Source: Gordonia sp. X0973 (GTDB taxonomy: Bacteria > Actinomycetota > Actinomycetes > Mycobacteriales > Mycobacteriaceae). From it: 64,000 nt of DNA. The notes under the pieces are model-generated. The model ran no database searches. It worked only from the letters and a program-made list of their open reading frames with translations, and was not told where the DNA came from. Positions 1-10,151 of this stretch are shown in pieces (the first letter of the stretch is position 1; every line of letters starts with the position of its first letter). Location: contig NZ_CP054691.1 of the NCBI RefSeq assembly GCF_013348785.1, positions 434,001-498,000 of the forward strand, read 5' to 3'. The translations under genes were made by a program, and so were the position numbers.

Positions 1-43
1 TCGGCGACGCTGACCCCGGGATGGTGCGCCCCGGACGTGCGGG

Positions 44-71
44 TAGCAGTTAGTACGGCTAGCAGTTACTA
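44..71. repeat. Tandem direct repeat upstream of the MinD-like gene
   Basis: TAGCAGTTAGTA at 44-55 is repeated as TAGCAGTTACTA at 60-71, giving a 16-base period. It lies about 105 bases upstream of the probable GTG start at 176. Paired half-sites of this type are often regulator binding sites, but no cognate regulator is evident here. The window begins at base 1, so the upstream context is unknown. Confidence 0.4.
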
Positions 72-175
72 TCTGCAATCAAAGCACGATGAACTGACAC
101 ATCACTTCTGGAATTGATGTGCAGACGCCCGATGCGTCGGATTCAGTCGCGAGGCGAAACGGGAGGGGAGACAGT

Positions 176-1270
176 GTGAGCGCTGATGACAAGGTCGAAT
201 CGTTGGAGGACCTGCTGGAGCAGGACTCGGACGAGAACGACGGCCGGCGGTCGCGAGGATCGGCGTCGCGCACCGCGGCGACGGGTCGGCGGGCGAATAT
301 CACCCGCAACCAGCGGCAGAACGTCGTCGGCCCGGGGTTGGACGAGGTCGCGCTCCTCGGCCGCGCCCGGCGGGCGCCGAAGAGCGGTTGGCGCAAGGCG
401 GTCCACTCGATGTCCGGTGGGCAGATCAACCCGGGCGATTCGCCGTATGAACTGCGCCTCGAGGAATTGGCCCAACGGGTGAACAAGCCCATCCGCGGCG
501 ACTACCGAATCGCCGTGCTGTCGTTGAAGGGAGGAGTCGGCAAGACGACGACGACCATCGGGCTCGGCTCCATCTTCGCCTCCCTGCGCGGCGACCGGGT
601 GATCGCCGTCGACGCCAATCCCGACCTGGGGACGTTGGCGCAGCGGGTACCGCAACAGACGCGATCGACGGTCCACGATCTGCTGGCCGATCCGTCGTTG
701 AACCGCTATTCCGACGTCCGGGTGCACACCTCCCAGGCGCCGAGCAGGCTCGAAGTGCTTGCCTCCGAACGTGATCCGGCAGCAGCCGAGGCGTTCAGCG
801 AGCAGGACTATCGCGGCGTCATCGACGTACTGCAACGCTTCTACAACATCATCATCACCGATTGCGGCACCGGCCTGAGCCATTCCGCGATGAACGGGGT
901 CCTCGACTTGGCCAACTGTCTGGTCCTGGTCAGCTCGGTGGCGATCGACGCGGCGCGGAGTGCGAGCGCAACCTTGGACTGGCTCGACGCACACGGGTAT
1001 GGGGACCTGGTCGACGACGCTGTCGTGGTGCTGAACTCGCCTCGTGCCGGTTCCTCGAATATCGACGTCGACGGGTTGGAACGCCATTTCCTCGGCCGCT
1101 GCAGAGGGGTGCAGCGGATCCCGTTCGACGACCACCTTGCCGAGGGTGCCGAGGTCGATCTCGAACTGCTCAAGAAGGAGACCAGTCTGGCGTTGACCGA
1201 GCTGGCGGCCATCGTGGCCGACGATGCGGACCAGTCGGAGCCGCGTCGGCCCGAGCCCTTCTACCGGTGA
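176..1270 (+). CDS. MinD/ParA-family P-loop ATPase
   Basis: A cytoplasmic ATPase of the MinD/ParA deviant Walker A family, 364 aa. An N-terminal charged, Arg/Asp-rich and probably disordered region (about 1-110) precedes the P-loop LKGGVGKTTTT at about residue 118. A VDANPDLGTL segment follows, as in MinD-like proteins. The arrangement of disordered arm plus MinD domain resembles EspI-type ATPases near actinobacterial ESX loci, but no ESX gene is visible here, so the partner is unknown. GTG at 176 is preferred over GTG 119 because GGGAGGGGAG lies just upstream. Alternatives are chromosome-partitioning or polar-positioning roles. Confidence 0.8.
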   Translation: MSADDKVESLEDLLEQDSDENDGRRSRGSASRTAATGRRANITRNQRQNVVGPGLDEVALLGRARRAPKSGWRKAVHSMSGGQINPGDSPYELRLEELAQRVNKPIRGDYRIAVLSLKGGVGKTTTTIGLGSIFASLRGDRVIAVDANPDLGTLAQRVPQQTRSTVHDLLADPSLNRYSDVRVHTSQAPSRLEVLASERDPAAAEAFSEQDYRGVIDVLQRFYNIIITDCGTGLSHSAMNGVLDLANCLVLVSSVAIDAARSASATLDWLDAHGYGDLVDDAVVVLNSPRAGSSNIDVDGLERHFLGRCRGVQRIPFDDHLAEGAEVDLELLKKETSLALTELAAIVADDADQSEPRRPEPFYR

Positions 1271-1324
1271 TGTTCGCGGTCCGCGGGGCAGGACCTAGGT
1301 CCGCTACGGCGCGCGTCTCACAGC

Positions 1325-1353
1325 TTGACAAGGGTATGTTTGTGATATTGAAT
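1325..1353 (+). promoter_or_regulatory. Candidate sigma-70-like promoter for the Gly-rich secreted protein
   Basis: A consensus TTGACA at 1325-1330 is followed by TATTGA (15-base spacer) or TTGAAT (17-base spacer), ending at 1353. The start codon at 1431 would have a leader of roughly 70 bases. The -35 is exact and the -10 only partial, so this is a candidate. Confidence 0.4.
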
Positions 1354-1430
1354 CGGTACCTGATCCAGGGCTTTTCGGTTATCTGGGTCTCTCAATCAAC
1401 TTGGAACCGAAGACTAGGAGAGTTAAGAGA

Positions 1431-2213
1431 ATGACACGTCAGTTCATCCTTACTGCCGGTGGGGCTCTGGTCGCGGCGGGTACCGCCGTCGTCGCGGCTG
1501 GTCCCGCGGCTCAGGCGGCCACGGCTGTGCCCGCGCCCGCCCACGTTCCCGCAGCCCTGACCGTCACCGGTCCGGCGGCGACGACCGGCGCGGCGACCAC
1601 GCCGCTCGGTGCGGCTGTCGGTGCAGCGCTCGGCGCCCTGGGGGGTGGCGCTGTTGGCGGCACCGGTGGTGCGGCAACGGGTGCCCTCATCGGCGGCGGC
1701 GCGGGCACCGTGCTCGGCGGCTTCGCCGGTGGTCTCGTCGGTGGGCCTCTCGGCACCGCGGCCGGTACCGCTGCCGGAATGGCGGCCGGCTGTGTGGTCG
1801 GCCTCCCGGCGCTGATCGTCGGTTGCCTCCCCGGTGCGGTCATCGGTGGTGCGATCGGCGCCGTCGCCGGCGGCACCTTCGGCATGGTTGCCGGCACCAC
1901 GCTCGGCGCCCTCGGCGGCGGCGCGGTCGGCACCGGCCTCGGCGCTGCTGCCGGTGGCCTCGGGGCGGGCGCCATCGGCACCGCGATCGGTGCCGGAATC
2001 GGTGCGCTCGCGGGCGCCGGACTGGGTTCGGTCGTGCCGACCTCGGCCGCTGTGGCGCCGCGTGCCGTCACCCAGCAGGCCGTCCAGGCGCCGGTCATCA
2101 GCCAGACCGCGTCCGGTTTCGTGAAGCAGCTGCCTCGCGAGGTTCAGGCCCCGGTCAACGACATGGTGCGTCAGGCCACCAAGTCGCTGAACCTGCCGAC
2201 GCTGGTTCGCTAG
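1431..2213 (+). CDS. Secreted Gly/Ala-rich glycine-zipper-like protein
   Basis: A 260 aa exported protein of unknown function. An N-terminal signal peptide (MTRQFILTAGG..., Ala-rich core, AQA cleavage near 28) precedes a long region about 60-215 made of GxxxG and GAxxG stretches with few charged residues. Such glycine-zipper repeats in other families insert into or pack against membranes. Two Cys (about 131 and 142) sit in the middle. A short amphipathic tail (PREVQAPVNDMVRQATKS) ends the protein. ATG 1431 is chosen because an AGGAGAGTT-type site precedes it and a signal peptide begins directly there. Low complexity makes homology uncertain. Confidence 0.7.
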   Translation: MTRQFILTAGGALVAAGTAVVAAGPAAQAATAVPAPAHVPAALTVTGPAATTGAATTPLGAAVGAALGALGGGAVGGTGGAATGALIGGGAGTVLGGFAGGLVGGPLGTAAGTAAGMAAGCVVGLPALIVGCLPGAVIGGAIGAVAGGTFGMVAGTTLGALGGGAVGTGLGAAAGGLGAGAIGTAIGAGIGALAGAGLGSVVPTSAAVAPRAVTQQAVQAPVISQTASGFVKQLPREVQAPVNDMVRQATKSLNLPTLVR

Positions 2214-2226
2214 CCACCCAAAAGCA

Positions 2227-2264
2227 GGGTGTTGTGCGAACCGACACTCCAGCGCACAACACCC
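2227..2264 (+). terminator. Hairpin terminator after the Gly-rich protein gene
   Basis: GGGTGTTGTGCG at 2227-2238 pairs perfectly with CGCACAACACCC at 2253-2264, with a 14-base loop, 14 bases after the stop codon. There is no U-tract, which is common for actinobacterial terminator candidates. Confidence 0.6.
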
Positions 2265-2325
2265 GGGGCGCCGCTGATCACACCTGGCCGATTCTCACTG
2301 TCGGAGAAGCCGAGCGGCGCTGACA

Positions 2326-2363
2326 GGCTCCCTCGTCCCGGGGATACCCGGGACGGGGGAGCC
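2326..2363 (+). terminator. Second, stronger hairpin before the dUTPase-like operon
   Basis: A 17-bp stem (2326-2342 with 2347-2363, one G-T wobble) closes on a GATA tetraloop, centred on CCCGGG/CCCGGG. It ends 57 bases before the GTG start at 2421. It could be a second terminator for the upstream gene or a structured leader of the downstream operon; the sequence does not decide between these. Confidence 0.5.
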
Positions 2364-2420
2364 TCCGGCTAGACCCATTCCATAGCCGTCGGATCACGGA
2401 ACCCGAGAAGGAGATCGCAC

Positions 2421-2816
2421 GTGGTAGCTCACGTCGAACTGCGCCGCGTCAACGGCGACATCGCCATTCCGCAGATTTCTGACAGCAGTTTCAACCTCTA
2501 CAGTTCCGAGGACCTCTTCCTCCGGCGTGGCGCGATCGAGACGATCTCGACCGGGCTCGCCGTCTCCTTGCCGGTCGGTCTCGTCGGTGTCATCTGTCTG
2601 CGGCCCAGCCTCGCGATCGTGGACTCGCCGACCCTGCGCTTCGAGAACCGCGATCCCATCAAGATCCGAGTGATCTCGGCGACCTCGGGGGATCTGCGGA
2701 TCGCGACGGGCGACCAGATCGGGACGGTCACCGTGTACGACCCGCAGCGCTGCACGTTCATCGAGGTCAACTACGGTGCCGTGCGCGGCGCGGCGGATGA
2801 TCGGCCCGGGTCGTGA
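2421..2816 (+). CDS. Degenerate dUTPase-fold protein
   Basis: A 131 aa protein that aligns by eye with trimeric dUTPases but lacks catalysis residues. Motif I appears as SFNLYSSEDL (GYDLYAAED in enzymes, with Asp replaced by Asn). The TGLAVSLPVGLVG strand and LRPSLA (PRSGLA-like motif II) are clear. A GDQIGTVTVY segment matches motif IV. Motif III (GVIDxxYxGE) is missing and the C-terminal glycine-rich motif V is absent, so dUTP hydrolysis is unlikely. A nucleotide-sensing or scaffold role is inference. AAGGAG lies 7 bases before the GTG start. The stop overlaps the next start by 4 bases (GTGA). Confidence 0.7.
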   Translation: MVAHVELRRVNGDIAIPQISDSSFNLYSSEDLFLRRGAIETISTGLAVSLPVGLVGVICLRPSLAIVDSPTLRFENRDPIKIRVISATSGDLRIATGDQIGTVTVYDPQRCTFIEVNYGAVRGAADDRPGS

Positions 2817-4600
2817 ACGCCGAGATCCCGGTCCGCCGGCATCCCTTGCTGCCGAGCCCGCGCACGTCGGCAGGCAGCATCAACCTCTACAGCGCGATTC
2901 GCGCGGATCTGGTCCGCGGGGAGCCGACGACCGTCTCGACCGGCCTGTCGATCGCCCTGCCGGACGGCTTCGTCGGTGTGATCCGTCTTCGCCCCGGGCT
3001 CGCCCTGGCCGGTTCTCCGACGATCGGCAGCAATGATCGAGAACCCATCTTCATCACGGTGGTCCACTGCCGAGCGCAGCCGACGGTGTCGATAGCGCAG
3101 GGTGAACAGATCGGGACGGTCTCCATCTACCGGACGCTGCACTGCCGCTTCTCGGAGGTCGAGGTCTTCAGCGAGGCACCCATCACCCCTCTCGACCGGG
3201 CGCGCCTCGAGCTTCCGGGAACCCTCCTGCGCAGTTCGCGAGCTGTTCGCCCGCGCCTGGTCGCCACGATCTCCACGGACGGTGCCGGCGCGACGGACGA
3301 CTTCGCGGCCACCGATTCGGCGCTGTTCCGTCAGCGGGTCTTCTCGATCGGCGACGGGGTCGGGCCCTACGACATCGAGGAGTTGGTCGACCTAGACGAA
3401 CTCGAGGACGGCTACCTCGACCTCGGATCGGTCCTGCTCCCGAGGTTGCCCGAGATCGCGTGGAACCGGGTCGCCGTGGAGTTCACCGCCGACCGACAAC
3501 CCGAGACACTGCACCTGATCAACGGGCAGGCGAGCCTCGGGGTCGCCGCCTTCACCGCGCCCGTCTCCGGGGGACTGTGGCGGACCTGCGTCGACCAGCT
3601 GATCGGCGAATTCGAGTCGAAGGGCGCGCGGGCCAGTCGCGTCCCCGGCGTCTGGGCCGACGAGGTGCTCGCCACGATCAACGGCTGGAGCTATCGGGTT
3701 ATCGGAGCCGACGGACCGCGCTGGATGGTCCGTGCGGTGCTGAGCTGCCCGGCGATGGAGATGGAGGAATTGACCTCCATCGGTCGGGCGCTGTTGCGCG
3801 AGACGGTGGTCCGGCGCGGCGTCGTCGCACAACCGGTCAACTCGCAGCTGGCCATCGAGCTGCCCGCCGATCTGGCGGTTCACCTCGACGGGATGCGCAC
3901 CGGAGTGCAGACCGTCGCACTAAGCCAAGACGGGTCGGTCGAGGTCGACCCGACGGAGAGATCGGGAGCACCAGACATGGAATCGGAACCCCGCACACCG
4001 GCGACGCTCGACGAAAGCGCCGGCCCGTACGACTACGACGACCTGACCGATGTCGGGCAACTCGAGGAGGGCTACCTCGACCTCGGGTCGGTCTTCCTGC
4101 CGATCGTCGACGAACTCGTCGGCAGTCAGGTGGCCGCCGAGTTCGACGAGGACGGCCAGCCGTCGGCGGTCACCCTCATCATCGGAGAGATGCGGTTGAG
4201 CGTCGCTGCCTTCGCGGCGGGTGAGACCGGCGGGCTCTGGCCCGCGGTCGCCGCCCAGATGATCGACGAGTTCACCCAGCTCGACGCCGAGGCCACCTCC
4301 GAGGCCGGTCCGTGGGCGCAGGAGGTCGTCGCCGTCTTCGACACGTGGACCTACCGCGCGATCGGCGTCGACGGCCCCGGATGGTTGGTTCGAGCCGTGA
4401 TGTCCAGTCCGACATCCCAGACGGCCGCCCTGACCGCCATCGCCCGCGATGTGCTGCGCAAGACGGTTGTCCGGTTGGGTCCGCAACCGCGTCCCGGCGT
4501 CGGCGACCCCATGCCGATCGTGCTGCCCGTCGAGATGGTCGAACAACTCGAGGCCGCGGCGGGAGTCGACGGTCCCGCCGAGCCCTCCGACGAGCAGTGA
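2813..4600 (+). CDS. Fusion of a degenerate dUTPase-like domain with two DUF3710 domains
   Basis: A 595 aa protein with three recognisable modules. Residues about 20-125 repeat the degenerate dUTPase fold of the preceding gene (SINLYSA, STGLSIALPDGFVG, LRPGLA, GEQIGTVSIY), again without motif III or V. Residues about 183-365 and 403-585 are two DUF3710 domains, each with GPYD, LDLGSV, GLW and a GVDGP/GADGPRW block, then an LRxTVVR helix. In mycobacteria a DUF3710 gene (Rv2696c) lies beside dut (Rv2697c), so this joins two families that are normally neighbours. Function is unknown. It is translationally coupled to the gene before it. Confidence 0.75.
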   Translation: MNAEIPVRRHPLLPSPRTSAGSINLYSAIRADLVRGEPTTVSTGLSIALPDGFVGVIRLRPGLALAGSPTIGSNDREPIFITVVHCRAQPTVSIAQGEQIGTVSIYRTLHCRFSEVEVFSEAPITPLDRARLELPGTLLRSSRAVRPRLVATISTDGAGATDDFAATDSALFRQRVFSIGDGVGPYDIEELVDLDELEDGYLDLGSVLLPRLPEIAWNRVAVEFTADRQPETLHLINGQASLGVAAFTAPVSGGLWRTCVDQLIGEFESKGARASRVPGVWADEVLATINGWSYRVIGADGPRWMVRAVLSCPAMEMEELTSIGRALLRETVVRRGVVAQPVNSQLAIELPADLAVHLDGMRTGVQTVALSQDGSVEVDPTERSGAPDMESEPRTPATLDESAGPYDYDDLTDVGQLEEGYLDLGSVFLPIVDELVGSQVAAEFDEDGQPSAVTLIIGEMRLSVAAFAAGETGGLWPAVAAQMIDEFTQLDAEATSEAGPWAQEVVAVFDTWTYRAIGVDGPGWLVRAVMSSPTSQTAALTAIARDVLRKTVVRLGPQPRPGVGDPMPIVLPVEMVEQLEAAAGVDGPAEPSDEQ

Positions 4601-4612
4601 CGCCGGGTCACC

Positions 4613-5155
4613 GTGGTACCCGCATCGAAAATGGCGAATCCCCGTCGCGTCGTGTTGAGCTCGCCGGCGGATCTGCGGCGCTTCGTCGACCAGGAAGCGA
4701 CCTTCGTGGTGACCGCCGAAGTCGAGGTCCGGCGGCGCCTGGACGAGGCCTGGTCGCAGGTGCGCACCGGTGACGTCATCGACCTGGGGTGGCTCTGCCG
4801 CGGACCGGTCTCCTCCGAGACGACGCGGACGTACCGCGGTGCCCTCGCGATGGTGACCTACGTCGCCGACCTCTCCGAGCCCTACCAGCTTCTCGGTGCC
4901 GGCGTCGGCACGTCGGCACCGGCCGTCGACGCCATCGTCGAGCGGATCAGACTGCGCGAGTCGGCCGAACATCGCACGGTCGTCAAATACGCGATCGCCA
5001 TTCGTCCCCGATTCTTCGGCTTCGTGCGGATGCGTTTCGTCGGCGTCCTCGTCCGGCCCTTCCTCAGATATGGGATTCGACGCGCGTTCAACTCCGGCCC
5101 GACGCAACAGCGGGTGCCGGTCAACACAGGTGAGATGGAGATGGGTGGCCGATGA
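4613..5155 (+). CDS. Probable SRPBCC (START-like) protein
   Basis: A 180 aa protein with no signal peptide. The N-terminal half (FVVTAEVEVRRRLDEAWSQVRTGDVIDLGWLCRG) looks like the first strand and helix of SRPBCC/polyketide-cyclase folds. The C-terminal half ends in a basic amphipathic helix (RPFLRYGIRRAFNSG). Its ligand is unknown. The start is uncertain: GTG 4613 is used, with ATG 4631 (MANPRR) possible and no strong ribosome site before either. It lies 12 bases after the DUF3710 fusion gene and overlaps the next gene by 4 bases, so it belongs to the same operon. Confidence 0.5.
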   Translation: MVPASKMANPRRVVLSSPADLRRFVDQEATFVVTAEVEVRRRLDEAWSQVRTGDVIDLGWLCRGPVSSETTRTYRGALAMVTYVADLSEPYQLLGAGVGTSAPAVDAIVERIRLRESAEHRTVVKYAIAIRPRFFGFVRMRFVGVLVRPFLRYGIRRAFNSGPTQQRVPVNTGEMEMGGR

Positions 5156-5883
5156 AAGAGATGACGGACGTGCGTCCGACGAGCGGCGCTGACGACGCGT
5201 CGGACGACGAGAAGCTCACGAAGGAGCGGGCGAAGACCAAGCGGGCGAAGGCGATGGCCACCGAATTGCACGCCGAGCTCTCCGCGACGCGCAAGCGGAT
5301 CGCCACCATGAAGAGGATCACCGCGGCGGCGGTCGTCCTTCTCGTCGCGGCCGTCGTGATGGTCGTCATGAACCGGACCAACACGTCGGCCGAGCTGGAC
5401 GGCATGAAGCAGGCGGCGGCGGCCGATCGGGCGACCCTCGCCGCCGCGCGGGGCGCCGCGGAGGAATACACGTCGCGCTCGCTGACGATGGACTACCGCC
5501 GCGCTCCCGAGTACGTGGCCAACGTCCGTCGCGGGACCACCGAGAAGTTCGCCAAGAACTTCAGCACGGAGCCCGGTGGGGCGGGACTCGCCACCTTGGA
5601 TGTCCTGCGACAGACCCACATGGTCGCCAAGGGTGAAGCCGCCTACTCGTACTTCGACGGCGATCCGAACGCGTTGCCGCGCGCCGGACAGCCGTGGAAC
5701 TTCGTCGTCGTCGCCACGCAGAGCGCGACGACGGCGCAGCAGCCGCAGGGGGTGTCCAATGCGCTCATCCTGCGCGTCGTCGTCGTCCAACAGGGGGATG
5801 CGTGGAAGGTGGACAACTTCGTCACCGACCCGAAGATCGCGGCGAAGACCGGACAGGCGGGGCTCCCGGCGAGCGGCGGGTAG
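5152..5883 (+). CDS. Mce-associated single-pass membrane protein
   Basis: A 243 aa protein with the layout of Mce-associated (Mas/Mam-like) proteins. A charged cytoplasmic coiled region (about 1-55, rich in Lys/Glu/Arg) is followed by one membrane segment (about 56-75, ITAAAVVLLVAAVVMVVM). An extracytoplasmic domain of the NTF2-like type follows (YTSRSLTMDYR ... VDNFVTDP). Such proteins usually stabilise Mce lipid importers, but no mce genes lie in this window. Here it closes the dUTPase-like/DUF3710 operon, with an ATGA overlap to the preceding gene. ATG 5152 is supported by that overlap. Confidence 0.75.
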   Translation: MKEMTDVRPTSGADDASDDEKLTKERAKTKRAKAMATELHAELSATRKRIATMKRITAAAVVLLVAAVVMVVMNRTNTSAELDGMKQAAAADRATLAAARGAAEEYTSRSLTMDYRRAPEYVANVRRGTTEKFAKNFSTEPGGAGLATLDVLRQTHMVAKGEAAYSYFDGDPNALPRAGQPWNFVVVATQSATTAQQPQGVSNALILRVVVVQQGDAWKVDNFVTDPKIAAKTGQAGLPASGG

Positions 5884-5926
5884 CGCCCGCCGTCCGACCC
5901 GGCGGGACCGATCTGTGGTCAGGTGG

Positions 5927-5941
5927 CAGGTCTGGGACCTG
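5927..5941. promoter_or_regulatory. Palindrome upstream of the first TetR gene
   Basis: CAGGTC at 5927-5932 and GACCTG at 5936-5941 form a perfect inverted repeat with a 3-base centre, about 40 bases upstream of the ATG at 5980. It is placed as an autoregulatory TetR operator would be. A TAAAGT at 5967-5972 could be the -10 of a very short leader. Confidence 0.35.
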
Positions 5942-5979
5942 GGTCCTCTTGTACATGGCCAGACGTTAAAGTAGCGGCT

Positions 5980-6702
5980 ATGGACGGTGACGGAATCGAC
6001 GTGGCCACGGAGGCAGGCGCGCAGCGGGTTCCGGCTCAACCCAACCAGCGTCGGGGCCGCCCTCCCCGTGCCGGCCTGGCCAGTGCGCGGCGGGAACACT
6101 TCACCCAGGCCGCGTACTCGGTGTTCGCCGAATACTCCTACGAGGACGCCCAGGTCAGCGAGATCGCCAGGCGTGCGGGTGTCGGTCAGGCAACCCTCTA
6201 CCGCTATGTGGACGGTAAGCGCGAACTGCTCGATCTCGTCGTCGACTGGTGCGCGGAGCGGGTGTTCGCGGCAATCGACGTCGACGAGATACTCGACGGC
6301 GCGGATGCCGACGGACCGGACGCACCGCAGGCGATGATCACCGATCTCGGTGACCGGCTGTATGCGCTCATCGACGAGGAACCCAATCTGCTGCGCATCC
6401 TGGCGGTGCAGGCGGGCGCGGTCGACCGCGAGCTCCGCTACCGGGTCTCCGGGCTGTACAGCGCGGTGAACGGCCTGATCATCCGCGCCCTGAGCCGGGC
6501 CGCGGAGCGCGGGTGGATCGACGCCGACGCACAGCACCTCGAACTCATCGCGCACCTGTTACCGTCGCTGAGTATGCCCGGTTTCATACTCGCCCTGAGC
6601 GGTGATCAGGACCAAGAGGTCACCCGCGCCGAGTATGTGGCCTGTGCCGCGCAGCTATCCCGATACGGTCTTCTGGGGGCAGGGAGACGCGAGGTTGAGT
6701 AG
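5980..6702 (+). CDS. TetR-family transcriptional regulator (paralogue 1)
   Basis: A 240 aa DNA-binding repressor-type protein. A basic N-terminal arm (QRRGRPPRAG) leads into the helix-turn-helix at about 45-75 (VSEIARRAGVGQATLYRYVDGKRELLDLVV). The ligand domain contains AVDRELRYRVSGLYSAVN and ends SRYGLLGAGRR. These blocks recur in the TetR at 7675, so the two are paralogues. ATG 5980 is chosen over the upstream in-frame codon because it follows the intergenic palindrome. The next TetR gene overlaps its stop codon. Ligand and targets are unknown. Confidence 0.85.
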   Translation: MDGDGIDVATEAGAQRVPAQPNQRRGRPPRAGLASARREHFTQAAYSVFAEYSYEDAQVSEIARRAGVGQATLYRYVDGKRELLDLVVDWCAERVFAAIDVDEILDGADADGPDAPQAMITDLGDRLYALIDEEPNLLRILAVQAGAVDRELRYRVSGLYSAVNGLIIRALSRAAERGWIDADAQHLELIAHLLPSLSMPGFILALSGDQDQEVTRAEYVACAAQLSRYGLLGAGRREVE

Positions 6703-7294
6703 TCGACACGACGAACTGCTCGATGCCGCGCTCGCGGAGTGGTCGAAGGTGGGGTACGCGGAGGTCGGGGTCAAAGAGATCACGGCACGGGCGTCGGTCA
6801 GTCATGGCACCTTCTACAACTACTTCGACAACCGCCGACAGCTGTTGGACGTCCTCGTCGAACGGGAGGTGACCCCGTTCTTGGAGATGTTCGACGTGTT
6901 GGAACGCGAGATGCACCGACCGGTGACCGAAGAGTCGCTGCGCGAGGTGATCACCGCGGGCACGGCGAAGGTGCTCAACGGCGTGCTGGCCCGTCCGGAC
7001 AGCATCTCGTTCATCGCGCTGGAGGTACCCGGAATCGACGACCGCGCCCTGCGCCGGGATATCGAGCTGTTCCGGGAGGCCGGCCGGCGTGCCGGGCGCA
7101 TCCTGGACAACGCGGTGGCCGACGGCGTGATCGACCGGTCGCTGAACATCGAGTTCGCCGGGCAGGTGTGGATCTCGGCGATCTTCAGCCTGGTGGTCCC
7201 CTTCCTCGCCGACGGTCGGGAGATCGGCGACGTCGACCGCCTCGCCGCCGAGTACGCGGAGATCGCGCTGCACGGGGTATCCCTGTCCAACTGA
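6695..7294 (+). CDS. TetR-family transcriptional regulator
   Basis: A 199 aa regulator beginning LSSRHDELLDAALAEW with a TTG start at 6695, which overlaps the upstream TetR stop by 8 bases. AGGGAG sits 8 bases before the TTG, and the HTH begins at the expected distance from it. The HTH (VKEITARASVSHGTFYNYFDNRRQLLDVLV) is clear. The ligand domain is unlike that of the two paralogous TetRs on either side. Translational coupling to the first TetR suggests the pair act together, perhaps on different signals. Confidence 0.8.
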   Translation: MSSRHDELLDAALAEWSKVGYAEVGVKEITARASVSHGTFYNYFDNRRQLLDVLVEREVTPFLEMFDVLEREMHRPVTEESLREVITAGTAKVLNGVLARPDSISFIALEVPGIDDRALRRDIELFREAGRRAGRILDNAVADGVIDRSLNIEFAGQVWISAIFSLVVPFLADGREIGDVDRLAAEYAEIALHGVSLSN

Positions 7295-7400
7295 GACCTG
7301 CTCGCCAGGACTAGCCGGGAAGCCGCTGCGAAAAGTAGAATGACGTGTCAACTCTCCTTCGGGAGTGTCCGCATGGAACCCACTACGAAAAGGTCGCCCT

Positions 7401-7688
7401 ATGATCCCGGAATCGGTCTACCAGCTGTTCGGCGGCGCGCTCGCGGCCAGCGGTCTCGCGCACTTCGCCGCCCCCAAGCCGTTCGCGGCCATCTCCCGTC
7501 CCTTCTTCGGGGACGAGACCTCCCGCTACGTGAAGGTGAACGGGGCCTCCGAGACCGCGATCGGATTGGCCATCGCCTACCAGCCGACACGCGTTCTCGG
7601 CTTCGCCGGGCTGGCGGCCTACGGCGTCTATCTGGGCGATCGGGTCGTCGACTACGGGCGGCGTCGATTCACCGGTGGCTCCGCCTGA
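7401..7688 (+). CDS. Small hydrophobic membrane protein, function unknown
   Basis: A 95 aa protein with about three hydrophobic helices (LFGGALAASGLAHFA, ETAIGLAIAYQ, VLGFAGLAAYGVYLG) and a basic C-terminal tail (YGRRRFTGG). No family was recognised. ATG 7401 has AAAAGG 7 bases upstream, which decides it over an in-frame ATG at 7365. Its stop overlaps the start of the next TetR gene by 14 bases, so it is probably controlled by, and co-translated with, that regulator. Confidence 0.6.
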   Translation: MIPESVYQLFGGALAASGLAHFAAPKPFAAISRPFFGDETSRYVKVNGASETAIGLAIAYQPTRVLGFAGLAAYGVYLGDRVVDYGRRRFTGGSA

Positions 7689-8391
7689 CACGCCGCCCCG
7701 GCGGCGTCGCGGGCGACCCGTCTCGGTAGGCCTCGCCGAGAAGCGCCTCGCGCAGATCACCCGGGCGGCCTACGAGGTCTTCGTCGAGCGCTCGTACGAG
7801 GAGGCCACCGTCGGAGACATCGCGTCGCGTGCCGGCGTCGGGCACGGGACGCTCTACCGCTATGTCCGCGGCAAACGCGAACTGCTCGACCTGGTCGTCG
7901 ACTGGTGCGCCGATCAGTTGCTGGGGGCGATCGACCCGGACACCGTCCTGGACGCCGCGCGCTCGAACGACCCGTTGGCCCTGCAGGAGACCGTCGACGA
8001 ACTCGGCACCAGGCTGTTCCAGCTGGCCGACGCCGAGCCGGGACTGCTGCGCATCCTCACGGTCCAGAGCAGCGCCGTCGACCGGGAACTGCGCTATCGC
8101 ATCACCGGCATCTACAACACCGTCGACGCCCTGGCCGTGCGCGTGGTCACCACCGCCGCCGAGAACGGCTGGATGATCGACGGCGACGAGGCGGTCCTGG
8201 TCACCGCCCGCACCCTCCCGGCACTGGCGTTACCCGGCGCGATGCTCGCGCTCACCGGCGAGGGAAGGGACTCCAAGCGCGCCGAGTACGTCGCCGCCGC
8301 GTCGGAGCTCGCGCAGTACGGGTTGCTGGGGACGGGGCGGCATCACCGACGCGCCGCCCGTCGACGGATTGCCGAACGACGCGGGGGATAG
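7675..8391 (+). CDS. TetR-family transcriptional regulator (paralogue 2)
   Basis: A 238 aa regulator with GTG start and a strongly basic arm (PPRRRRGRPVSVG). The HTH is VGDIASRAGVGHGTLYRYVRGKRELLDLVV. Long identical blocks are shared with the TetR at 5980 (GKRELLDLVVDWCA, AVDRELRYR, YGLLG), so a duplication is likely. It overlaps the small membrane protein gene, and an SDR gene with a palindromic upstream site follows. Ligand unknown. Confidence 0.85.
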   Translation: MAPPDTPPRRRRGRPVSVGLAEKRLAQITRAAYEVFVERSYEEATVGDIASRAGVGHGTLYRYVRGKRELLDLVVDWCADQLLGAIDPDTVLDAARSNDPLALQETVDELGTRLFQLADAEPGLLRILTVQSSAVDRELRYRITGIYNTVDALAVRVVTTAAENGWMIDGDEAVLVTARTLPALALPGAMLALTGEGRDSKRAEYVAAASELAQYGLLGTGRHHRRAARRRIAERRGG

Positions 8392-8427
8392 CTTCGGGCA
8401 GCAGGGAGCGGTACTGTCGTAACAAAC

Positions 8428-8441
8428 ACTGATACGTCAGT
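8428..8441. promoter_or_regulatory. Palindromic operator candidate before the SDR gene
   Basis: ACTGATACGTCAGT is a perfect inverted repeat (ACTGA, 4-base centre, TCAGT) 28 bases upstream of the SDR start at 8470 and 36 bases after the TetR stop. Position and symmetry suit a TetR operator. Confidence 0.45.
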
Positions 8442-8469
8442 TCATCCATTTCGAAAGGATGGTGGACCG

Positions 8470-9399
8470 ATGTCGAAATCGTCTGTCCCCCAACGCATCT
8501 GGTCCGCCCGCAAGGGGTTGGCCCGGGCCGCCGCAACCACCGTCACCGCACCGATGCGCTCGGTCGATCCGGCCGGGAAAGTCATCGTGATCACCGGCGG
8601 GTCGTCGGGGATCGGGGCCGCCGCGGCCCGGCGCTTCGTCCGGCAGGGTGCCACGGTGGCGCTCGTCGCCCGCGGCGAGGACCAGCTGCGCGAGACCGCC
8701 GAGGCGATAGCAGCCGAATTCGAAGCGGCCGACCGGGTTCGGTGGTTCGCCGGCGACGTCACCGACGAGGACCGCATGCGCGGCATCGTCGACGAGATCC
8801 TCGCGGCCCATGGCCGGATCGACGTGCTCGTCAACAATGCCGGCCGCTCGATCCGGCGGGGCACCGCCAACGCGACCGACCGCTCGCACGACTACCGCCG
8901 CACGATGGAGGCCAACTACCTCGGCGCCGTCGCGTGCACGCTGGCCGTCCTGCCCGGCATGATCGAACGCCGCCGCGGCCGCATCGTGAACGTCTCCAGC
9001 ATCAGCACGCAATTGTTCAGCCCCCGCTACAGCGCCTACGTCGCGAGCAAGGCCGCCCTCGACGCGTTCGGCGAGGTGGTCTCCGGCGAGGTCGCCACCC
9101 GCGGAATCACCGTCACGTCGGTGAAAGTGCCGCTGACCCGCACACCGATGATCGAGCCGTCGCGCAAGGTGCAACCGGCACCGGCGATCAGCCCGGAACA
9201 GGCCGCCGTGCTCATCGAGCGGGCGGTGCGCCACGGCCGTCCCACGGTCTCGACGACGGCCGGGCGCATCGGCGGCGGACTCACCGCGGCCTTCCCCGGT
9301 TGGTCACGGGTCGCCCGGCAGATCGAGTACCTGGCCATGCCGGAGTCGGCGGCCTCGCGCGGGAGCGCTCAGCGCACGTCCAACACCACCGGGGCGTGA
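8470..9399 (+). CDS. Short-chain dehydrogenase/reductase
   Basis: A 309 aa NAD(P)-dependent oxidoreductase of the classical SDR family. The dinucleotide motif TGGSSGIG is at 42-49, NNAG follows in the middle, and the active site has a Ser in NVSSIS and the YVASK Tyr-Lys pair. A basic, Arg-rich N-terminal extension of about 35 residues and a C-terminal extension beyond the usual 250 aa suggest membrane association, as in SDRs that act on lipids. AAAGGA precedes ATG 8470. The 3' end overlaps convergent xthA by 31 bases. Substrate unknown; TetR control is likely. Confidence 0.85.
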   Translation: MSKSSVPQRIWSARKGLARAAATTVTAPMRSVDPAGKVIVITGGSSGIGAAAARRFVRQGATVALVARGEDQLRETAEAIAAEFEAADRVRWFAGDVTDEDRMRGIVDEILAAHGRIDVLVNNAGRSIRRGTANATDRSHDYRRTMEANYLGAVACTLAVLPGMIERRRGRIVNVSSISTQLFSPRYSAYVASKAALDAFGEVVSGEVATRGITVTSVKVPLTRTPMIEPSRKVQPAPAISPEQAAVLIERAVRHGRPTVSTTAGRIGGGLTAAFPGWSRVARQIEYLAMPESAASRGSAQRTSNTTGA

Positions 9400-10151
9400 T
9401 CGCTGGCCCCTGGGGCCTTGCGGGCGGCCTTGTCGATCGCGGCGCCGAAGACGCGGTCGTTCAACGCGGGTGAGCAGAGGACGAAGTCGATCTTCATTCC
9501 CTGGTTACGGGGGAAGCGGAGCTGCTGGTAGTCCCAGAACGTGAAGGTCTTCTCCCGTTCGAGGTAGGGCTGGGCGGCATCGGCATAGCCGGCGTCGGCG
9601 AAGGAGCCGAAGGCGGCGCGCTCCTCGTCGGTGACGTGGGATTTGCCCGCGAACTCGGCCGGGTCCCACACGTCGGCATCGGTCGGCGCGACGTTCCAAT
9701 CGCCGGCCAGGGCGATCTGCGCCGCGGGATCGTGGGCCAGCCACAACGCGGCGCGGTCGCGCAGCGCCCCCAGCCACTCCACCTTGTAGGAGAAGTGCGG
9801 GTCCCCGGGGGCCCGGCCGTTCGGGACGTACAGGCTCCACACCCGCACGCCGTCGCAGACCGCGGAGATGGCCCGCGCCTCGCGCGCACCCTCCCACTCG
9901 GGCTGTCCCTCGAATCCGTACTCCACCGCGTCGAGTCCGACGCGCGAGGCGATGGCGACGCCGTTGTAGCCGCCGTTTCCGGTGAACGCGACGTCGTAGC
10001 CGGCGGCGAGGAAGCTCATCACCGGGAAGCCGTCATCGGTGCATTTGGTCTCCTGCAGGGCCAGGACGTCGATCTCCGAGTCGGCGGCCCACGCCACGAT
10101 CGATTCCGACCGGGCGCGAATCGAGTTCACGTTCCACGTCGCGAGGCGCAC
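9369..10151 (-). CDS. xthA: Exodeoxyribonuclease III
   Basis: A 260 aa AP endonuclease/3'-5' exonuclease of the EEP fold, acting in base-excision repair. Family motifs are present: LATWNVNSIRAR near the N-terminus, LQETK (metal-binding Glu), GGYNGVAI, AGDWNVAP and GASDHAPV (catalytic Asp-His) at the end. GTG 10151 places the start exactly before LATWNVNS; a much longer upstream reading frame overlaps the barstar-like gene and is not real. The 9-base gap to that gene suggests co-transcription. Its 3' end overlaps the convergent SDR gene. Confidence 0.95.
   Translation of the reverse strand: MRLATWNVNSIRARSESIVAWAADSEIDVLALQETKCTDDGFPVMSFLAAGYDVAFTGNGGYNGVAIASRVGLDAVEYGFEGQPEWEGAREARAISAVCDGVRVWSLYVPNGRAPGDPHFSYKVEWLGALRDRAALWLAHDPAAQIALAGDWNVAPTDADVWDPAEFAGKSHVTDEERAAFGSFADAGYADAAQPYLEREKTFTFWDYQQLRFPRNQGMKIDFVLCSPALNDRVFGAAIDKAARKAPGASDHAPVVLDVR

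Follow-up and report, generated by a model that had tools for sequence, protein, structure and literature searches.

Trimeric dUTPases (EC 3.6.1.23; PF00692, TIGR00576) share a jelly-roll fold and five catalytic motifs, among them motif III with its aspartate and the C-terminal motif V. Motifs I-III and V hold the base, sugar and phosphates, while the C-terminal arm crosses between subunits. In the canonical dut-DUF3710 pair, represented by Rv2697c-Rv2696c of Mycobacterium tuberculosis and SCO5868-SCO5869 of Streptomyces coelicolor, the dUTPase gene is followed by a member of DUF3710, a family whose role is unknown. A review (PMC4255298) describes this linkage as conserved throughout actinomycetes, and PMC3360063 places downstream of Mycobacterium smegmatis dut a gene of unknown function predicted to belong to the same operon. 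Here we describe p1-p4, four densely packed plus-strand genes called as open reading frames (ORFs) at positions 2421-5883 of a 64,000-nucleotide stretch of DNA (the window), which is part of the 3.75 Mb single-contig genome of Gordonia sp. X0973 (434001-498000). The products of p1 and p2 contain the same two families as the canonical pair, in the same order, but the dUTPase part is doubled, predicted to be catalytically dead and, in p2, joined in frame to two DUF3710 domains, and the canonical pair is still present in the genome.

The dUTPase fold has also been found in contact with other proteins. Moonlighting dUTPases of staphylococcal phages, named in PMC13309787, target the Stl repressor; the phage proteins are working enzymes. 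So is mycobacterial Dut, which binds AdnA according to PMC13309787; that paper also reports that in mycobacteria a structurally intact Dut is indispensable while its dUTPase activity is replaceable, and PMC3360063 likewise describes a need for intact Dut that goes beyond catalysis. At the locus described here, unlike in these cases, the proposed partner, DUF3710, is a fused domain.

Domains of p1 and p2

p1 (2421..2816) encodes a free-standing protein of 131 amino acids with a GTG start. p2 (2813..4600) encodes a protein of 595 amino acids, residues 1-125 of which (2813..3187) form a second degenerate dUTPase-fold domain. In a plain sequence search, p1 matches solved dUTPases at E 7e-9 and residues 1-125 of p2 do so at E 3.3e-9, the best match among solved structures being the Mycobacterium abscessus dUTPase 4gk6. 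Scores against curated profiles fall below the cut-offs, narrowly for Pfam dUTPase PF00692 (20.5 bits for p1 and 19.5 for p2; cut-off 22) and widely for TIGR00576 (19.9 and 20.8 bits; cut-off 102.55) and NF001862 (19.6 and 27.9 bits; cut-off 103). An AlphaFold2 model of p1, with a predicted local distance difference test (pLDDT) score of 86.7, is closest to the dUTPases of Nocardia and mycobacteria. dUTPases fill all 50 Foldseek matches shown and all 50 VIA-align matches, the absence of a family from a VIA-align list excluding nothing. Because it was built from an alignment of dUTPases, the model gives no independent evidence of the fold. p1 and the N-terminus of p2 carry the dUTPase fold, as had been claimed in an earlier reading of the DNA without database searches (the sequence-only reading).

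Neither protein retains the five catalytic motifs. Within what we take to be the borders of motifs I-V, motif I (GDAGVDL) is replaced by SDSSFNL in p1 and SAGSINL in p2, with an aspartate changed to asparagine. Motif II is altered, with a six-residue gap beside or inside it whose placement varies between alignments. Motif III (GTIDAGYRGE) is gone, its place being taken by -TLRFENRDP in p1 and -TIGSNDREP in p2, while motif IV (RGDRIAQ) reads TGDQIGT in p1 and QGEQIGT in p2, so that the arginine and glutamine are lost and the G-D/E-x-I-G part is kept. Motif V is missing from both. In an alignment of 42 canonical Duts of Gordonia, Williamsia and Tsukamurella (54 were fetched and 12 removed by hand), 66 residues are at least 98% conserved; p1 retains 22 of these and the p2 N-terminus 21. 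The loss is wider than that of motifs III and V noted in the sequence-only reading. Because all five motifs are altered or missing, dUTP hydrolysis is, judging from the sequences, very unlikely, and nucleotide binding improbable.

These changes bear on a suggestion made from the sequence alone, that the locus encodes a nucleotide sensor whose dead dUTPase domain would still take up dUTP or some other nucleotide and relay a signal via p4 to the membrane. Such a role would suit the retention of the fold and of the G-D/E-x-I-G part of motif IV, but the nucleotide-holding motifs I-III and V have been replaced or deleted and p3, the gene between p2 and p4, encodes a protein with no membrane segment. 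We therefore regard a sensor as very improbable.

p1 and the p2 N-terminus are 43-46% identical to each other, and p1 aligns with canonical Duts at 30-38% identity. In a tree the two group together with support of 100/100, on long branches.

Profile matches place the two DUF3710 domains of p2 at 3362..3877 and 4022..4546. The whole protein scores 250.6 bits against DUF3710 (PF12502; cut-off 25) and the individual domains 132.7 and 128.9 bits, which bears out the fusion to two such domains proposed in the sequence-only reading. Among 45 canonical DUF3710 members, 57 residues are at least 98% conserved, of which domain 1 retains 39 and domain 2 retains 34; as these fractions exceed those for the dUTPase residues, the DUF3710 part is the more constrained. 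The two domains are 44-45% identical, hardly closer to each other than to their nearest canonical members, and group in a tree with support of 100/98. They likely arose by tandem duplication, a conclusion that we put no more firmly because the branches are very long and the identities no higher than those to canonical members.

The Mog1/PsbP-like fold is a beta3-alpha-beta4-alpha sandwich. An AlphaFold2 model of DUF3710 domain 1 (pLDDT 86.0) resembles the Mog1/PsbP/LpqN/DcrB fold. No sequence similarity was found to Mog1/PsbP-like proteins (LpqN, PsbP, DcrB, Mog1, EagT6/SciW), from which p2 also differs in its fusion to a dUTPase fold. The predicted fold offers a first structural idea of what DUF3710 may do, namely act as a protein-binding adaptor.

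The canonical pair and the source of the extra copy

An intact dut gene (159 amino acids) followed by a DUF3710 gene (263 amino acids) lies at 1.73 Mb in the same genome, 1.29 Mb from p1-p4. Both group with their counterparts from Gordonia araii and two Gordonia metagenome-assembled genomes. The DUF3710 family also occurs in Corynebacterium glutamicum. A DUF3710 scan of named genomes fetched 54 loci (39 from Gordonia, 10 from Tsukamurella and 5 from Williamsia), and dut lies upstream of DUF3710 in 54 of the 54, with gaps of -4 to 209 nucleotides. The genomic link between the two families, already drawn in the sequence-only reading, is thus seen both as a fusion here and as adjacency at every canonical locus fetched. 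Since the genome retains an intact pair, p1 and p2 represent an additional, degenerate copy of it. The data support descent of p1 and p2 from a dut-DUF3710 pair, in the course of which the dut part was doubled, the motifs were lost and one copy was fused to two DUF3710 domains. Owing to the long branches, the tree does not settle whether this copy arose in the organism's own lineage or elsewhere. For the DUF3710 domains only, the approximately unbiased test rejects neither a Gordonia origin (p-AU 0.18) nor one within the clade of the genome's own pair (p-AU 0.154).

The intact pair in the same cell raises the question of a decoy. p1 and p2, which keep the dUTPase core fold, might mix into oligomers of the cell's own active Dut or take the place of the canonical DUF3710 protein at its partner, and thereby damp down the canonical Dut-DUF3710 complex. 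However, p1 and the p2 N-terminus are only ~30-33% identical to the genome's own Dut and lack the C-terminal arm, for which reasons mixed trimers with Dut are less likely than p1-p2 ones, and we think a decoy function unlikely.

The extra copy is known from one genome. A search with p1 across 59 Gordonia genomes returned three matches in X0973, namely the intact dut, p1 and p2, a single match per genome in 57 others, taken from their scores to be canonical dut, and two in a single genome, G072; no degenerate copy was found in the 58 other genomes by this search. The second match in G072 was considered as a candidate degenerate copy and rejected, as it is a dUTPase gene that retains both motif III and an intact glycine-rich C-terminus. 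This gene (L189:671-1105, 144 amino acids) has motifs that look intact and is possibly prophage-derived.

p2 was searched in 36 other Gordonia genomes, plus a few more within samples of the order and class. Matches were found in 59 of 61 genomes, the 36 other Gordonia among them, with full-length cover only at the p2 locus itself. In the order sample (397 genomes, X0973 included) 55 genomes matched at 1e-30, and in the class sample (394, X0973 included) four matched at 1e-36; a full-length match occurred in X0973 alone. No fused copy was therefore seen in the 396 other order genomes and 393 other class genomes sampled, where the order, class and genus sets overlap and a highly diverged fusion would escape the thresholds. 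Where a match outside X0973 extends across both dut and DUF3710, it is interrupted by stop codons and thus represents adjacent genes, and at each of the 40 relatives' loci with ORFs checked (29 from the p2 search and 11 from the p1 search) dut and DUF3710 are separate. A scan of contigs for p2 by exact 8-residue words, which may omit records near the organism's own genome, confirmed nothing, and a search of one literature library found no published dut-DUF3710 fusion.

An origin from a mobile element was considered and rejected. There was no phage match. Four plasmid records matched, none over more than 80% of the query, and the three that were opened (all but NZ_CP107781.1) contained no fused match; p1 had no plasmid match. 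A scan of window 1-9500, which did not reach the far edge of the block upstream of the window, showed no flanking repeats of the kind left by an insertion; five families of direct repeats were found in this region, two of which (D2 and D4) correspond to the dUTPase duplication. Among the plasmid records, NZ_LR134458.1, a Tsukamurella 'plasmid 16' bearing dut, DUF3710, dxs and hemE, seems to be chromosomal DNA that was deposited under a plasmid label. The Streptomyces plasmids pYINM00001 and pSCO1 have a DUF3710 region near replication or helix-turn-helix genes, with no annotated dut nearby in an incomplete gene table.

p3, p4 and the mce locus

p3 (4613..5155) encodes a protein of 180 amino acids and p4 (5152..5883) a single-pass membrane protein of 243 amino acids. 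The ORF coordinates give four-nucleotide overlaps between p1 and p2 and between p3 and p4 and a gap of 12 nucleotides between p2 and p3, the spacing already read from the sequence alone. In two relatives, G007 and G062, homologues of p3 and p4 lie on either side of an mce operon. The gene order there is thiC, GNAT, siderophore-type protein, hydrolase, p3, ABC1 kinase, hydrolase and YrbE, then the Mce genes, p4, monooxygenase, SDR, a second monooxygenase (seen in G007 and uncalled at that place in G062), a DUF4267-like gene, a TetR pair and SDR; these family names were assigned by eye, except that of the Mce gene beside p4 in G007. Homologues of p3 also adjoin an mce locus in G077 and G010, and not visibly in G064.

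X0973 has conserved the genes on both sides of the block, with 50-94% identity to G007, but has no mce operon at the locus. The window contains no mce gene, all 31 MlaD hits in the genome lie at 2.1 Mb or beyond, and the most similar YrbE-like gene in the genome matches at 48%. The second monooxygenase and the TetR pair have between them a block consisting of a ParA-like gene, a glycine-rich gene and p1-p4. p3 and p4 are thus not the original partners of p1 and p2, being mce-locus genes in close relatives, and the data support the view that they now follow p1 and p2 in an operon-like run. The case shows how a dismantled mce locus can supply genes that recombine into a new operon-like unit. A conserved four-gene system, which the sequence-only reading had put forward as undescribed, is rejected, since p1 and p2 occur in no other genome searched and p3 and p4 homologues flank the mce operon in relatives. 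p1 and p2 are a degenerate paralogue known from one genome, and a variant of a known pair.

p3 is a soluble form of the mce-locus protein. Homology begins at residue 30 of the G007 protein, right after the membrane segment of the latter, and the peak hydropathy of p3 is 1.05, against 2.9-3.3 in five relatives. The earlier assignment of p3 as a probable SRPBCC protein is reduced to a possibility: p3 itself matches no family by profile search, comparing its profile with solved structures yielded nothing better than chance (E 0.35), and among four relatives' copies (G007, G062, G010 and the distant G005) only that of G010 matches SRPBCC/Polyketide_cyc2, at 26.6 bits (cut-off 27.4). The G010 copy (L061:6252-6815) seems to be frameshifted near its end, with two pieces in different frames. 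For p4, the membrane segment (approximately residues 56-74) is present and homologues adjoin mce genes in relatives, which supports its earlier description as Mce-associated; two of three relatives' copies scanned match SnoaL_4 below the cut-off. It differs from the Mce-associated membrane proteins of mce operons in lying far from any mce gene and following p1-p3. The membrane link proposed earlier may run through p4; p3 has no membrane segment here.

Within the genus search, the best matches of p3 are the same-locus copies of G062 and G007; p4 was compared only with copies at this locus. As to origin alone, the whole p1-p4 block might have been acquired horizontally from some unsampled actinobacterium in which it is perhaps an established system. 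The long branches, the clean placement of the block between two syntenic genes and its GC content (0.66-0.69, against a window median of 0.70) would suit such a transfer, but the p3 matches, the unrejected Gordonia origin of the DUF3710 domains and the failure to find a phage match or, in the three opened plasmid hits of four, a fused match make it unlikely on balance.

Both p3 and p4 have changed more here than in G007 and G062. They share 43-48% identity with their counterparts in those two genomes, compared with 62-66% between G007 and G062 themselves; the SDR, ABC1 kinase, first hydrolase and DUF4267-like genes have no comparable drop. Nonsynonymous divergence (dN) towards G007 and G062 is 0.53-0.54 for p3 and 0.46 for p4, compared with 0.29 and 0.33 between G007 and G062, the synonymous divergence (dS) being similar. 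By three-point arithmetic on dN, the X0973 branch is ~2.8 times the average relative's branch for p3 and 1.8 times for p4. The larger change fits a new role or relaxed constraint alike. It would be expected if p1-p4 were what remains of a locus that had been rearranged, weakly constrained, becoming pseudogenes and without present function, as would the restriction to one genome, the alteration or loss of every catalytic motif, the long p1 and p2 branches, and the loss of the p3 anchor and the mce operon. In a related Gordonia, G074 (contig 23, L105), p3, p4 and the mce operon are all absent at the same locus, and there is no p1 or p2, which also speaks for decay. Against decay, 1,149 codons remain open across four reading frames, GC content at third codon positions is 0.83-0.91 (window median 0.89), dN/dS is below 1 in all pairs and many conserved DUF3710 residues are kept. 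The four-nucleotide overlaps and a good Shine-Dalgarno-like site (AAGGAG, 2408..2413, plus strand, found by eye seven nucleotides before the p1 GTG) point the same way, and we consider decay rather unlikely.

Proposed role and other features of the locus

We propose, as a tentative reading that falls a little short of probable, that p1 and p2 form a dead dUTPase-fold scaffold showing tandem DUF3710 adaptors, with p3 and p4 as clients or anchors, and that ordinary Dut and DUF3710 bind each other. The p1 and p2 N-termini would assemble together, probably into the trimer usual among dUTPases, aided by coupled translation. The non-catalytic assembly would then display pairs of DUF3710 domains, which may serve as protein-binding adaptors given that their predicted fold is Mog1/PsbP/DcrB/Eag-like and that some of its relatives bind proteins. 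The likely clients or anchors would be p3, which is soluble, and p4, which is membrane-bound and would perhaps bring the assembly to the membrane. In the extra copy, the contact between Dut and DUF3710 would have survived while the chemistry was dropped. Because the two are fused here, a 'Rosetta stone' argument predicts that ordinary actinomycete Dut and DUF3710 form a physical complex. Weighing mildly against this, DUF3710 is not reported as a two-hybrid hit in the available passages of PMC13309787.

The main value of the locus lies in this prediction about the common dut-DUF3710 pair, as a fusion that has lost only the enzyme chemistry turns a gene neighbourhood into a direct question, namely whether Dut and DUF3710 bind. 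The dUTPase fold may, further, have been left solely as an assembly platform for DUF3710, with DUF3710 a dedicated physical partner of Dut across actinomycetes that carries at least part of the non-catalytic function behind the mycobacterial need for a structurally intact Dut. We hold this extension to be doubtful; if true, the genome would hold a natural separation-of-function version of the Dut-DUF3710 complex.

Between the upstream glycine-rich gene and p1 lies a hairpin with an 18-bp stem and a four-nucleotide loop (2325..2364, plus strand). The region 2320-2375 folds at -43.9 kcal/mol (z -6.5), and 0 of 200 shuffles were equally good. The hairpin has no T run and is likely a terminator or leader structure marking the start of the p1-p4 unit; because it separates the glycine-rich gene from p1, the unit probably begins at p1. 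No Rfam match at the gathering threshold was found in window 1-10000. A search of window 1-6200 for a sigma-70-type promoter was also negative, a result of little weight in an actinobacterium.

The gene at window 119-1270 encodes a ParA/MinD-like ATPase of 383 amino acids, with matches at E 1e-40 or better in 57 of 59 Gordonia genomes (X0973 included). Six loci carrying its homologues were opened; all have other surroundings, and the proteins have a longer N-terminus. Downstream of p4, three TetR-type genes are present (5923-6702, 6602-7294 and 7675-8391), against two in G007 and G062. Since in each relative a single gene is matched by both the first and the third, one TetR gene was probably duplicated here.

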